A DNA stretch of 44,536 bases from Chthonomonadales bacterium (GTDB lineage: Bacteria > Armatimonadota > Chthonomonadetes > Chthonomonadales > CAJBBX01), in assembly GCA_020849275.1 (NCBI GenBank), contig JADLGO010000045.1, forward strand, positions 1 to 44,536, in the 5' to 3' direction. Position 1 is the stretch's first letter. Each line of letters starts with the position of its first letter. This document shows positions 12,701 to 18,043 of the stretch, piece after piece. A program made the translations under genes and the position numbers. The notes under the pieces are model-generated. The model saw only the letters and a list, made by a program, of their open reading frames with translations, was not told the origin of the DNA and did not search any database.

Positions 12701-13153
12701 TCAGGAGCCGCAGGCGGTCTCGAGGGCGCCGATCTTGCCCACGCGGCGCGCGTGGCGCTCCCCATGCGAGAACGCCGTGCGGAGGAACACGCGCACGATG
12801 TCGTCCGCCACCTCGGGGCCGACAATACGCTCGCCGATGCACACGACGTTCGCGTTGTTGTGCTCGCGAGACAGGCGCGCGGACACGGTCTCCGATACGG
12901 CAGCGGCGCGCACGCCCGGCACCTTGTTGGCGGCGATCGCCATGCCGACGCCCGTGCCACACACGAGCACGCCCCGCTCCGCCTCGGCGGCGGCGACGGC
13001 ACGGCCTACGGCGGCGGCATAGTCCGGGTAGTCGCTGGGCTCGGCGCTCGTTGCGCCAAGGTCGTGCACCTCGTACCCATCCGCCAGCAGGAGGTCGCGA
13101 AGGCGGTTCTTCACGTGGAATCCCGCGTGGTCCGAGCCGATCGCTACGATCAT
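12701..13153 (-). CDS. rpiB: Ribose-5-phosphate isomerase B
   Basis: The 150-aa length and the RpiB/LacAB signature are clear: IGSDHAGFHVKN at the N-terminus, DYPDYA, LVCGTGVGMAIAANKVPGVRAA (catalytic Cys and the phosphate loop), and SREHNNANVVCIGERIVG. It interconverts ribose 5-phosphate and ribulose 5-phosphate in the pentose phosphate pathway. ATG 13153 is preceded by the ribosome-binding run GGGGGG. The ATG at 13168 is part of that run, so the shorter start is preferred. It lies 51 bp downstream of the ABC-F gene. Confidence 0.94.
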   Translation of the reverse strand: MIVAIGSDHAGFHVKNRLRDLLLADGYEVHDLGATSAEPSDYPDYAAAVGRAVAAAEAERGVLVCGTGVGMAIAANKVPGVRAAAVSETVSARLSREHNNANVVCIGERIVGPEVADDIVRVFLRTAFSHGERHARRVGKIGALETACGS

Positions 13154-13204
13154 GGTGTGGCCCCCCATCTAGCGCCTATTCTACACCACCCGGAGCGCCG
13201 TTGG

Positions 13205-14752
13205 CTAGTCCGTACCCGGCATGTCCGGTGCGCCTGGCGCGCGCCGCGCGGCCCATTCCGAGAAGGGGCCGGGATAGTCCTCCAGCCGGCCACCGCCCAC
13301 CACGAGCGTGCGCGAGGTGAGCCGATCGAGGAGATAGCGATCGTGCGACACGACAACGAGGGTGCCCGGGTGAGCGTCCAGCGCATCCTCGAGCCGCTCG
13401 CGCGTGTGCAGGTCGAGGCGATCGGTCGGTTCGTCCAGCACGAGCAGGTTGGCGCCGGAGACGACGGCGCCGGCGATGGCGGCGCGCACACGCTCGCCGC
13501 CCGATAGGTCGCCGATCCGCTTGAACACGTCCTGGTCGCGAAACAGAAAGCACGCCAGCAGCGTGCGGGCCTCCGTGGCGGAGAGCGCCCCCATGGCCTG
13601 CACGGCGTCGAGCACGGTGCCGGCGTCGTCCAGCGCGGACTGCTCCTGGTCGAGGAGGAAAGGCTCGATGCCCTCCCCCGCCCGCGCCACGCCCTCGCAC
13701 GGCGCCTCCTGGCCGAGAAGCAAACGAAGGAGCGTGCTCTTGCCCGCGCCGTTCGGCCCGATGACCCCGATGCGCTCCCCGCGGCCCACCGAAAGGTCGA
13801 CGCCGCGGAAGAGCCAGCGTTCGCCGTAGGCGTGACCCAGACCGCGCGCCTCCAGGACGATCTGGCCGCCACGCTTCCTGGGGGCGAAGGCCGCGCTGAG
13901 GCTGTGCGCGCCGAGAGCCACCTCGACGGGCATGAGGCGCTCAGCGCGGCTCTCCGCGCCCCGGGCCCGGCGCGCCATCTTGGCGGCGATCCGCCCGCGC
14001 TGGTCGCGGCCGCGCTTTGGCCCGTCCTGAGCTCGGGCGGCCCATGCGCGCTGGCGTGACGCGAACTCGCGCAGCGCGCGCACCTGCCGGTCGCGCAGCA
14101 CGGCGTCCTCACGGCGGCGGACGAGGGCCTGCTCGCGGGCCTCGCGGTAGGCCGTGTAGCCGCCCGCGTACTCCGTCAGCCCCCCGTCATCGAGCTCCAG
14201 GATGCGCCGCACGGTCGCGTCCAGGAAGCGGCGATCGTGAGAGGCAACGAGGAAGGTGCCGCGCCGGCCGCGCAGGTGCTCCTCGAGCCACGCGATGCCG
14301 GCCACGTCCAGGTGGCTGGTCGGCTCGTCCAGCAGCAGCAGGTCGTGGCGGCCGAGCAGCAGCGCGGCCAGCAGCATGCGCGTCTTCTCGCCGCCGGAGA
14401 GGGCGGCCGCCGGCTGATCGAGCTGGGTGGCGCCCAGCCCGAGCCCGCGGAGCGCCCGCCGCGCCTCCCACGCTTGCGCTCCGGACGCCGCCGCCACGTG
14501 CTCCGCCGCGGTCTCGTTGCGATCACAGACGGCAACCTGCGGAAGGTAGCCTACCGAGACGCCGCGCGCCACCGCGATCGCGCCGGCGCGGTCGGGCGCC
14601 TCGACGCCGGCCAGGACGCGCAGCAGCGTCGTCTTGCCGCAGCCATTGCGGCCCACCAGTCCCACGCGATCGCCGTCGCCGATCGCCAGCCCGACCCGAT
14701 CCAGGATCGCCCGGGCGCCGTAGCGCTTCTCGATCCCACGTACGATGAGCAT
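13205..14752 (-). CDS. ABC-F family ATPase (EttA/Uup/antibiotic-resistance type)
   Basis: This 515-aa protein has two ABC domains in one chain and no membrane segments, as in ABC-F. Domain 1 has GRNGCGKTTLL, then LSGGEKTRMLLAALL and LLLLDEPTSHLD. Domain 2 has GPNGAGKSTLL, LSGGERVRAAIAG and LLVLDEPTDRLD. The region between them is the charged, Arg-rich linker (about residues 210-290, EQALVRRREDAVLRDRQVRAL) that reaches the ribosomal P-site in studied members. ABC-F proteins act on the ribosome, regulating translation or displacing antibiotics. ATG 14752 is 6 bases from GGGAG; ATG 14755 is an alternative. A strong promoter lies 270 bp upstream, leaving an unusually long leader. Confidence 0.9.
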   Translation of the reverse strand: MLIVRGIEKRYGARAILDRVGLAIGDGDRVGLVGRNGCGKTTLLRVLAGVEAPDRAGAIAVARGVSVGYLPQVAVCDRNETAAEHVAAASGAQAWEARRALRGLGLGATQLDQPAAALSGGEKTRMLLAALLLGRHDLLLLDEPTSHLDVAGIAWLEEHLRGRRGTFLVASHDRRFLDATVRRILELDDGGLTEYAGGYTAYREAREQALVRRREDAVLRDRQVRALREFASRQRAWAARAQDGPKRGRDQRGRIAAKMARRARGAESRAERLMPVEVALGAHSLSAAFAPRKRGGQIVLEARGLGHAYGERWLFRGVDLSVGRGERIGVIGPNGAGKSTLLRLLLGQEAPCEGVARAGEGIEPFLLDQEQSALDDAGTVLDAVQAMGALSATEARTLLACFLFRDQDVFKRIGDLSGGERVRAAIAGAVVSGANLLVLDEPTDRLDLHTRERLEDALDAHPGTLVVVSHDRYLLDRLTSRTLVVGGGRLEDYPGPFSEWAARRAPGAPDMPGTD

Positions 14753-15025
14753 CATCCGCTCCCTTGCTCGTCTCGCGCCTGCGCGGCGCGCGCGCCAACA
14801 TGTACCAGACCAGGGCGAGGGGCGGAGGACGCACGCGAGACCGGGCTGCGCGACGGCGCCGGCGGCGCGGAATCGCGCCGGCAACTGGCAAGAGGGCTAC
14901 CCGGGAGACGCGAACGCGCCCGCGCTCCGGCCGACGCCGGGCACGCCTGGCGGTTCGTGATGTCTCAGCGAGCGAGTATCATGGATGCTCCAGGGCGCGA
15001 GCGGGGCGCCCCATGAGAGGGGTTG
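14753..15025 (-). promoter_or_regulatory. Long 5' leader of the ABC-F gene, possible attenuator
   Basis: About 270 nt separate the predicted start site (~15025) from the ABC-F start. Near the 5' end of the leader an 11-codon frame (15012 down to 14977) ends in an ATGA overlap with a 5-codon frame, MILAR. The first frame begins inside a GGGGCGCCCC palindrome. I see no good ribosome-binding site for either frame. Antibiotic-responsive ABC-F genes are known to be controlled by leader-peptide attenuation, but nothing here proves that. Confidence 0.3.
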
Positions 15026-15199: not shown

Positions 15200-15236
15200 T
15201 TGACACCCCACATGCGCGATGGTATGATGGTATAAT
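15200..15236 (+). promoter_or_regulatory. Sigma-70 promoter TTGACA-17-TATGAT with a second -10-like TATAAT
   Basis: TTGACA (15200-15205) is followed at the ideal 17-base distance by TATGAT (15223-15228). Eight bases further lies a perfect TATAAT (15231-15236), giving the near-repeat GGTATGATGGTATAAT. With the TTGACA the second box would be 25 bases away, so it cannot share that -35. Start sites near 15235 or 15243 are possible. The S41 gene begins 50-60 nt downstream. Confidence 0.75.
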
Positions 15237-15292
15237 GCCGTGACCCGGTGTCTACGGCCGGGTTCGTTTGCTTGCGGCACGGAGGAACTGGA

Positions 15293-16666
15293 GTGACTCG
15301 ATCCCTCAGATACACGATCCTTTGCCTGTGGCTCGGCCTGGTCGTCTGCGCATCGTTCGCGGGGGGCCGCCACATCCGCAGGATCGCGGACGCGACGATC
15401 GTCTCCCCCTCGCGCTTCACCGCGCTGCCCGCCGCGGCGATCGGGGCGAGCGACTACCGCCCTAGCGCCGACGACGACTCCGCGATCGACCCCTCCGAGA
15501 CCTTCCGCGACGTGCTGCGTTACGTGCGGACCGAATACGTCGATCGCGTTACGGATGACGGCAAACTGAGCGCCGGCGCCGTCAAGACGATGCTGATGTC
15601 GCTGGATGACCCGAGGACGCGGTTCCTCGACCCGTCGCAGCGCGAGCGTCTGGAGGCCCAGGTGAACGGCAAGTTCACGGGCATCGGCGCCGTGCTGACG
15701 GTGGTCAAGAGGAAGCGCAACGCGATCGAGCAGCGCCGCCTGGCCGTGGTGGCACCGGTTCCCGGCGGGCCCGCCGACAAGGCCGGGCTGCGCGCCGGCG
15801 ACGTGATCACGGAGATCGGCGGCCGCTGGGTGATCGCCTACGACCCCCGCCTTGACCTCGACCAGCTTCGCGTACGCGATATGGATGAGCAGTCCTACCG
15901 CAACGCGTTCAAGCAGGCCACCCAGAGGCTGACGGACGGCGTGACGCTGCCCAAGGCGCTCGATACGCTCGCCACCAACGCCGAGAAGCCGCTCGAGATC
16001 ACGGTGGAGCGGGCGGGCTCCGAGAAGCCGCTCAAGCTCACGGTGTTGCCCGCCGGCGTCGAGGTCGTGCCGGTGGAGTACCGCACGCTGCCACGGGGCG
16101 GCGCTTACCTGCGCGTGACGCAGTTTGGCGACCGGGCGACCAGGGAGTTCACGCAGGCGCTCTCCGGCGGCTCGCCTCGCGCGCTCGTGGTGGACCTGCG
16201 CGACAACGTGGGCGGTCCCGTGACGGGCGCGCGCGCCGGCGTCTACGGCAGCGCCCTGCAGCTCCTCTCGCGTCTGACACCGGGCGGATCGGTCGGCGCC
16301 GTGGTGCGCAAGGGCGACCGGAAGCAGGCGGTAACGGTCGAGACCGAGGGCGCAAGGCATCCGAAGCTCGCGGTCCTGGTCAACAGCGGCACGGCGAACA
16401 TCGCCGAGTGGGTCGCCGCCGCCCTGCGTGACCGTGGCGGCGCCGTCATCGTGGGAGCCCGCACGTTTGGCGACGCCACGCTCCAGAAGCTCGTGCCCCT
16501 GGGAGGCGGCAGCGCGATGACGCTGACCACGGGGAAGCTCCTGACGGCGCGTGGCGTGGACTTCGCCGGTACCGGCATCAAGCCCGACCGCGCGGTCGCC
16601 ACGGGCGGCCCACGCGCTGACGACCCCGTGGTGACGCAAGCGCTCGGTTGGCTGGCCAGGGCCTGA
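15293..16666 (+). CDS. S41-family C-terminal-processing protease homologue, predicted catalytically dead
   Basis: The 457-aa protein has an N-terminal membrane anchor/signal (YTILCLWLGLVVCASFAGG), a PDZ-type domain near residues 120-260 and an S41 core. Aligned to the active neighbour, the catalytic serine position is Asn369 (GTANIAEWVAA, codon 16397-16399) and the catalytic lysine position is Asp394 (TFGDATLQ, codon 16472-16474). The 25-residue spacing between the two sites is kept. It is therefore probably not a protease but a binding or regulatory partner outside the membrane. GTG 15293 has GGAGGA at 15281-15286. An upstream in-frame GTG at 15248 would add 15 residues without a site. Sixteen bases separate it from the active paralogue. 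Confidence 0.87.
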   Translation: MTRSLRYTILCLWLGLVVCASFAGGRHIRRIADATIVSPSRFTALPAAAIGASDYRPSADDDSAIDPSETFRDVLRYVRTEYVDRVTDDGKLSAGAVKTMLMSLDDPRTRFLDPSQRERLEAQVNGKFTGIGAVLTVVKRKRNAIEQRRLAVVAPVPGGPADKAGLRAGDVITEIGGRWVIAYDPRLDLDQLRVRDMDEQSYRNAFKQATQRLTDGVTLPKALDTLATNAEKPLEITVERAGSEKPLKLTVLPAGVEVVPVEYRTLPRGGAYLRVTQFGDRATREFTQALSGGSPRALVVDLRDNVGGPVTGARAGVYGSALQLLSRLTPGGSVGAVVRKGDRKQAVTVETEGARHPKLAVLVNSGTANIAEWVAAALRDRGGAVIVGARTFGDATLQKLVPLGGGSAMTLTTGKLLTARGVDFAGTGIKPDRAVATGGPRADDPVVTQALGWLARA

Positions 16667-16681
16667 GGGAGGACGACGCAC

Positions 16682-18043
16682 GTGATGACCAAGCGGAGCC
16701 TGATGTTCCCCGCCGTGTTCGCCCTGGTGGCCGTGCCCGCGATCCTGGGATTCGCGGGCGTGGACGATCGCGCCCACGACCTCGATCGGATCGGTCGGCG
16801 GGGGCAGCGCGCCGTCATGGCCCTGTTCGGCCTGCGGCGCGCCAGCGCCCAGGAGGACGCGGGCCCCTACGCCGCATACCGCGAGGCCCTCGCGGTGCTG
16901 AAGCGCGACTACTACCCGACCGCGATCGGCGAGAAGAAGACGCGCGACCTGACCTACGCCGCCATCGAGGGCATGCTGAACAGCCTCAACGACCCGTTCA
17001 CCAGCTTCCTCGATCCCGATGAATGGCTGCAGATGCAGCAGAACACGCAGGGTTCCTTCGAGGGCATCGGCGCCGTGCTTGAGCCGATCGTGCGGGACGT
17101 GCGCGTGGTGCGCCCGATCCCGGACAGCCCGGCGTTCCGCGCTGGCCTCCGGTCCGGCGACATCATCCTGAGCGTCGGCACACACAACACCACGACCGGT
17201 GCGCTGATCAAGACCACACCGACGCTCGGCAAGAGGATCGACGAGGTGGTGAAGCTGATCAAGGGCCCCCGGGGCACCAAGGTCACCATCACCGTGATGC
17301 GCAAGGGGGTCAACAAGCCGCTGAGCTTCGTGCTCACCCGAGCGCACATCGAGCCGCCCACGGTGCGCTACTGGATGGAGGACACGACCAACCACATCGG
17401 CCACATCGTGCTGAGCGAGTTCAACGAGAAGAGCGATCAGCAGTTCGACAGCGCGGTCAACAACCTGCTGCGCCAGGGCATGAAGGCGCTGGTCTTCGAC
17501 CTGCGCTACAACCCGGGCGGTCTGCTCAACGTCGCCGTCGACATTGGCAGCCGGTTCGTCGATCGCGGCGCGGTCGTCATCGTGCAGGAGAAGAACGGGC
17601 AGCAGCACAAACTGATGGCCCGCTCCAGCCAGCGGCGCCTGAAGGGCATCCCGCTCGTCGTGCTTGTGAATGAGAACAGCGCCAGCGCCTCCGAAATCGT
17701 GGCCGGCGCCATCAAGGACCACGGCCTGGGCACCCTGGTCGGCGAACACACCTTCGGCAAGGGGTTGGTCCAGACGCTCTTCCCCCTGGGCGATCGATCC
17801 GCCCTGCGGCTGACGACGGCCAAGTACTTTACGCCGAGCGGCCGCGACATCAACAACCGCTACGATGACGAGCACCGCACGATCTTCGGCACCGGCGGCA
17901 TCAAGCCAGACATGGTGGTGGAGCAATCGAAGGACTGGGTGGAGCAGGACTTCGACGACAAGGCGCATGACGTCCAGCTCAAGGCGGCGCTCGATCTTTT
18001 GCGCTCACGCTTGGCCTCGGCGCAGGCGCGCGCGGCGCGCTGA
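16682..18043 (+). CDS. S41-family C-terminal-processing serine protease (CtpA-like)
   Basis: This 453-aa protease has a signal/anchor (MFPAVFALVAVPAILGF), a helical region, a PDZ domain (about 115-215, FEGIGAVLEPIV then AGLRSGDIILSVG) and the S41 core. The catalytic dyad is intact: Ser335 in ENSASASEIVAGA and Lys360 in HTFGKGLVQT, 25 residues apart as in CtpA/Tsp. It cleaves proteins from their C-termini in the extracytoplasmic space. GTG 16682 is 8 bases from GAGGGAGGA (16665-16673); ATG 16685 is the alternative. It is co-transcribed with the dead homologue just upstream, suggesting a working pair. Confidence 0.93.
   Translation: MMTKRSLMFPAVFALVAVPAILGFAGVDDRAHDLDRIGRRGQRAVMALFGLRRASAQEDAGPYAAYREALAVLKRDYYPTAIGEKKTRDLTYAAIEGMLNSLNDPFTSFLDPDEWLQMQQNTQGSFEGIGAVLEPIVRDVRVVRPIPDSPAFRAGLRSGDIILSVGTHNTTTGALIKTTPTLGKRIDEVVKLIKGPRGTKVTITVMRKGVNKPLSFVLTRAHIEPPTVRYWMEDTTNHIGHIVLSEFNEKSDQQFDSAVNNLLRQGMKALVFDLRYNPGGLLNVAVDIGSRFVDRGAVVIVQEKNGQQHKLMARSSQRRLKGIPLVVLVNENSASASEIVAGAIKDHGLGTLVGEHTFGKGLVQTLFPLGDRSALRLTTAKYFTPSGRDINNRYDDEHRTIFGTGGIKPDMVVEQSKDWVEQDFDDKAHDVQLKAALDLLRSRLASAQARAAR

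Follow-up and report, generated by a model that had tools for sequence, protein, structure and literature searches.

A predicted pseudoprotease encoded directly upstream of an intact C-terminal-processing peptidase in Armatimonadota

The window (the whole stretch of 44,536 nucleotides that was analysed) contains two adjoining genes for proteins of the S41 peptidase family. The first protein, P1, is a homologue of the C-terminal-processing peptidases (CTPs) that has lost both residues of the catalytic Ser-Lys dyad, whereas the second, P2, is an intact CTP. Judged by its sequence and by those of its relatives, P1 is probably an ancient pseudoprotease that has been retained beside an active CTP. 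P1 is maintained and not decaying, because the dead-then-live pair is kept in at least 20 families of the phylum. We infer that the two proteins form a hetero-oligomer, in which P1 has the roles of a resting subunit and of a gate for substrates. P1 could reveal how the CTP family is controlled.

The two genes and their catalytic positions

The genes lie on the same strand and their products have similar domain orders (Table 1). Both proteins exceed the Pfam cut-offs for the Peptidase_S41 and PDZ domains, the scores of P1 being 94.5 bits for PF03572 and 36.6 bits for PF17820. P1 and P2 are 29% identical across 415 aligned residues (E 4e-42), and N369 and D394 of P1 face S335 and K360 of P2 in the alignment. 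The two positions are separated by 25 residues in both proteins, and Gln364 of P2 follows four residues after the Lys. With TIGR00225, the NCBIfam model of the C-terminal-processing peptidases, which has a cut-off of 218.6 bits, P2 scores 318.6 bits and passes, while P1 scores 170 bits and falls below. A CtpB_N-like model gives a weak match in both proteins, below its cut-off. At the position aligned to His85 of the CtpA subclass, P2 has Phe instead.

Table 1. Features of the P1-P2 pair, in positions of the window
Feature	Position	Strand	Description
Promoter	15200..15228	+	Sigma-70-like with extended -10, TTGACA-17 bp-TATGAT, upstream of P1
P1	15293..16666	+	457 aa, GTG start; S41/CTP homologue, predicted catalytically dead; order: N-terminal membrane/signal segment, N-terminal dimerisation-like helices, PDZ with family-specific insert, S41
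P1-specific PDZ insert	15827..15937	+	Residues about 179-215, begins WVIAYDP
Asn369 codon (P1)	16397..16399	+	Catalytic Ser position; from P1/P2 alignment and relatives
Asp394 codon (P1)	16472..16474	+	Catalytic Lys position; from P1/P2 alignment and relatives
P2	16682..18043	+	453 aa, GTG start (ATG 16685 alternative); intact C-terminal-processing peptidase; order: N-terminal membrane/signal segment, PDZ, S41
Ser335 codon (P2)	17684..17686	+	Catalytic; from alignment and relatives
Lys360 codon (P2)	17759..17761	+	Catalytic; from alignment and relatives
Gln364 codon (P2)	17771..17773	+	Third residue of the S-K-Q triad; conserved in relatives

An earlier note on this DNA had named the same four residues and their 25-residue spacing, and its numbering is exact by translation and alignment. 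The distance between the genes, given there as 16 bp, is 15 bp if P2 starts at GTG 16682 and 18 bp if it starts at ATG 16685. The single promoter placed there in front of the pair corresponds to a strong sigma-70-like promoter, which matches the consensus at 11 of 12 positions; the shuffled region is expected to contain 0.2 promoter-like sites of any kind. The promoter is directly followed by a weak terminator-like stem (15242-15264). We infer that P1 and P2 are made from a shared transcript and reside in the same compartment.

The catalytic positions were compared in 85 P1 sequences. The Ser position is occupied by N in 32, G in 29, R in 12, S in nine, K in two and A in one, the Ser thus being replaced in 76. 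The Lys position is occupied by D in 64, E in six, N in four, L in four and K in two, with Q, M, H, S and T found once each. Ser occurs without Lys nine times and Lys without Ser twice, but the two never occur together. Ser and Lys are both kept by every one of the 84 P2 sequences that are readable at these positions, and the Gln is likewise present in 84 of 84. The co-occurrence of N/D in one protein with S/K in the other, suggested in the earlier note as a check, is therefore borne out for the intact dyad of P2 and for its absence from P1, but not for the letters themselves: N/D is found in 29 of the 85 and is one of 18 different dyad states. What all P1 sequences share is that Ser, Lys or both are missing; the exact N/D residues are not universal. 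The two most diverged P1 sequences of the class (L055 in G017 and L056 in G016) have Gly at the Ser position and keep the Lys, the reverse of the usual arrangement.

The same note had also named a second fitting Ser/Lys pair in P1 as evidence that would count against a dead protease. No alternative pair is conserved among the P1 relatives, in which the commonest Ser columns reach 62-67% and K163 reaches 63%. These Ser columns and K163 are also common in P2, and no candidate for another Ser/Lys active site in P1 emerges.

The altered pocket might have been remodelled for a new, non-proteolytic catalysis or for the binding of a ligand, comparable to the carriage of retinoids by IRBP/RBP3. The prevalence of Asp at the old Lys site would agree with this, as would T367, which is invariant in P1 and sits where the first, non-catalytic Ser of SASAS lies, and the presence of RBP3 among the PDB relatives of P1. 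However, the combination of N, G, R, S, K or A at one position with D, E, N, L, K, Q, M, H, S or T at the other is variation unlike that of a catalytic site, and we regard a remodelled pocket as very improbable. IRBP/RBP3 shares the S41-type fold with P1; it is eukaryotic and is not known to have an active S41 protein encoded next to it.

Distribution and descent of the pair

A search with P1 gives matches in 10 of the 12 genomes of the window's family and in 28 of the 31 genomes of its class. A P1 profile that was run against 291 genomes from the phylum matched about 108 of them strongly (E of 1e-60 or better). Sixty further loci from other families were added to the relatives and read. At all 83 other loci that have both genes, P1 immediately precedes P2 and is read in the same direction, and these loci represent 20 families of Armatimonadota. 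Each locus has two adjoining S41 genes, the first of which is always nearer to P1 and the second always nearer to P2. At many loci the stop codon of P1 and the start codon of P2 overlap or nearly touch. The 83 other pairs rule out a local sequencing error or a recent mutation, and a recurrence of this extent far exceeds what chance would give. A lack of conservation among relatives, which the earlier note had put forward as grounds for dropping its proposal, was not observed, the dead/live order being present in about 20 families. The pair-bearing relatives almost certainly include a cultured species, Chthonomonas calidirosea. One further locus, in G026, is cut by the end of its contig.

In several other families of the phylum an intact CTP stands alone; the pair is widespread in Armatimonadota and not universal there, and this type of protease can therefore work without P1. 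Two candidates for a live P2 without P1 in pair-bearing lineages, G132 and G134, proved to have an upstream P1 when the P1 profile was broadened. In the window's own family, G005 (94% complete) and G011 (97% complete) show neither gene, which suggests joint loss of P1 and P2, as far as incomplete assemblies can indicate. Outside the phylum, a scan of named genomes, which reaches close relatives only, gave just an ordinary Paenibacillus CTP with Ser and Lys intact. The matches found on plasmids are S41 peptidases of less than 60% identity.

In a tree of 69 P1, 70 P2 and three outside CTP sequences, P1 forms one clade with an SH-aLRT support of 100 and P2 forms one clade with a support of 92, although this tree comes from a quick search and its root branch is weakly supported (77). 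As P1 is a single clade, independent duplications are ruled out. Both subtrees track the family groups. The pairwise distances in P1 and P2 have a correlation of 0.83 (null maximum 0.11), but co-inheritance by itself would produce such agreement between the trees.

P1 evolves faster than P2, the mean p-distances being 0.72 and 0.61, respectively. Together with the lost catalytic residues, this greater divergence is what a functionless, decaying duplicate would display. Decay is nevertheless already contradicted by the full-length reading frames in 20 families and by the low dN/dS values, which in close species pairs are 0.03-0.19 for P1 and 0.03-0.10 for P2 and indicate strong purifying selection. 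We consider this explanation hardly credible.

The P1-then-P2 order, which is fixed at every locus read, and the frequent overlap of start and stop codons could also mean that P1 is an inhibitor or chaperone, which by its dead active site and PDZ domain holds P2 in a resting state until a signal is received, or stops it from cleaving itself during export. Such a function would explain why P1 is always encoded first. However, gene order cannot separate inhibition from assembly, and the CTPs that stand alone in other families of the phylum do without a partner of this kind. An inhibitor or chaperone is, in our estimation, quite unlikely.

The PDZ domain and possible assembly with P2

The PDZ domain of P1 contains an insert of about 35 residues. 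The segment from G176 to A222 has 42-54 residues in 81 of 85 P1 sequences, while its equivalent in P2 has 13 residues in 73 of 86 and no more than 24 in the others. P1 keeps the D-L-R...GG framework as well as the GIG loop of the PDZ domain and the hinge aromatic residue, which is F or Y in 74 of 85. The position equivalent to Arg168 of Bacillus subtilis CtpB (BsCtpB) is R or K in 82 of 86 P2 sequences; in P1 other residues, Thr and Ser among them, prevail, the alignment being less certain here owing to the insert. This arginine corresponds to Arg162 of Helicobacter pylori CtpA (HpCtpA), where it is required for activity (PMC12749690).

The N-terminal segments are conserved in both families and are predicted to be helical in the P1 model. 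This AF2 model, built with P2 and four CTPs and from a shallow alignment, is of moderate quality (pLDDT 61, pTM 0.51). The folds found closest to it by Foldseek are those of HpCtpA and of CtpA from Pseudomonas aeruginosa (PaCtpA), and CtpB was also matched. HpCtpA and PaCtpA, which belong to S41A, have a fold and a domain order like those of P1 and P2 and form dimers through their N-terminal helices. In HpCtpA at least one subunit per dimer is resting, and its PDZ domain shuts one entrance of the active partner (PMC12749690). CtpB of B. subtilis is a PDZ-gated Ser-Lys CTP that also dimerises through its N-terminal region, to be compared with the weak CtpB_N-like match in P1 and P2. Since a BsCtpB dimer can have two active subunits (PMC12749690), a resting subunit is not required in every CTP. 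These systems differ from the present one in that a single gene encodes all subunits of HpCtpA or PaCtpA, each with Ser-Lys-Gln, and CtpB is likewise a single gene without a dead paralogue, whereas here one of two paralogues is predicted to be dead.

P1 and P2 stem from a single duplication early in the phylum. The first copy has lost the catalytic base, mostly by a change from Lys to Asp, with the nucleophile replaced variously, and its PDZ domain has acquired the extra element and given up the residue by which ligand binding is linked to catalysis. The resulting protein would be an exported, membrane-anchored pseudoprotease, cotranscribed with the active P2 and assembling with it via the N-terminal helices through which CTPs form dimers. 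P1 would then be a permanent resting subunit, the PDZ domain of which captures or gates tails for the active site of P2, a gene duplicate having taken over the resting role of the CTP dimer for good. P1 bears the traits to be expected of such a subunit: it lacks the catalytic and the ligand-coupling residues, it retains the dimerisation-like region and an elaborated PDZ domain, and it shares a gene cluster with P2. The core of this proposal, namely that P1 joins P2 as a non-cutting subunit whose PDZ domain captures or gates substrate tails, is in our view the likeliest reading, with about an even chance. A bolder form of it is tentative and somewhat doubtful: the lineage may have made the half-of-the-sites behaviour of CtpA genetic, as an obligatory dead:live hetero-oligomer of the envelope with a pseudo-subunit having a PDZ specificity of its own.

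Segment-wise partial correlations between P1 and P2, a crude test, gave a value of 0.04 for the two N-terminal regions, where no coupling was seen. The largest value between the proteins (0.21) was found for the PDZ domain of P1 with part 1 of the P2 core, and the test gave no clear sign of an interface. The proposal of the earlier note, a pseudo-protease that scaffolds, recruits substrates for or inhibits its active partner, is supported in part: the lost dyad of P1 and its coupling to an intact CTP are borne out, while the three suggested roles are putative.

The intact PDZ domain and its conserved insert would also suit a free-standing adaptor or decoy, situated outside the P2 oligomer, that delivers tails to P2 or shields them, and known CTPs do employ separate adaptors (PMC12749690). 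However, a PDZ adaptor would not need the complete S41 fold and the dimerisation-like helices that P1 retains. An adaptor or decoy is unlikely, if still deserving of serious attention. NlpI and LbcA are TPR proteins and not homologues of S41. In the Prc-NlpI and CtpA-LbcA systems, as proposed for P1 and P2, a partner protein controls the access of substrates to the CTP (PMC12749690). The CTP regulators described are unrelated adaptor proteins.

Pairs of a pseudoprotease and a protease are familiar from a few other families. The alpha and beta subunits of the mitochondrial processing peptidase (MPP, family M16) are, like the present pair, an inactive homologue and an active enzyme, and the inactive subunit is needed (PMC11266112). 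MPP differs in being a metallopeptidase of unrelated fold, and its heterodimer is proven, whereas that of P1 and P2 is proposed. No report of a pseudoprotease or pseudoenzyme partner in the CTP family was found in the literature covered, which is largely open-access. To our knowledge, a dead:live CTP hetero-oligomer would, if true, be the first pseudoprotease partner known in the S41/CTP family. The P1-P2 pair is a natural experiment on two points: whether CTP dimers require a resting subunit, and what such a subunit contributes.

Neighbouring genes and other S41 tandems

No universal partner gene was found beside the pair across the compared loci, although two genes recur in some families. 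An RpiB-like gene, at 12701-13168 on the reverse strand of the window, lies no more than a few kb from the pair in seven of 21 compared loci, including some from distant families. A polysaccharide deacetylase gene is found closely 3' of P2 in four families (L160, L168, L169 and L170), hinting at a role in the envelope or cell wall. In two families (L161-L165) a fixed run of genes 5' of P1 encodes a periplasmic binding protein, a phosphorylase-superfamily protein and a HEAT-repeat protein, at some loci with RpiB as well. A gene for an ABC-F-type ATPase (13205-14884, reverse strand) is divergent from the pair in the window, and three other loci have a similar gene close to the pair. Several of the antisense frames that recur near the pair are shadows of the S41 genes.

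The genome from which the window is taken also has a tandem of two large S41 genes, of more than 1100 codons, elsewhere (G000:C24:64106-67806; L002 and L003). G005:C1 and G011:C458 appear to have similar tandems.
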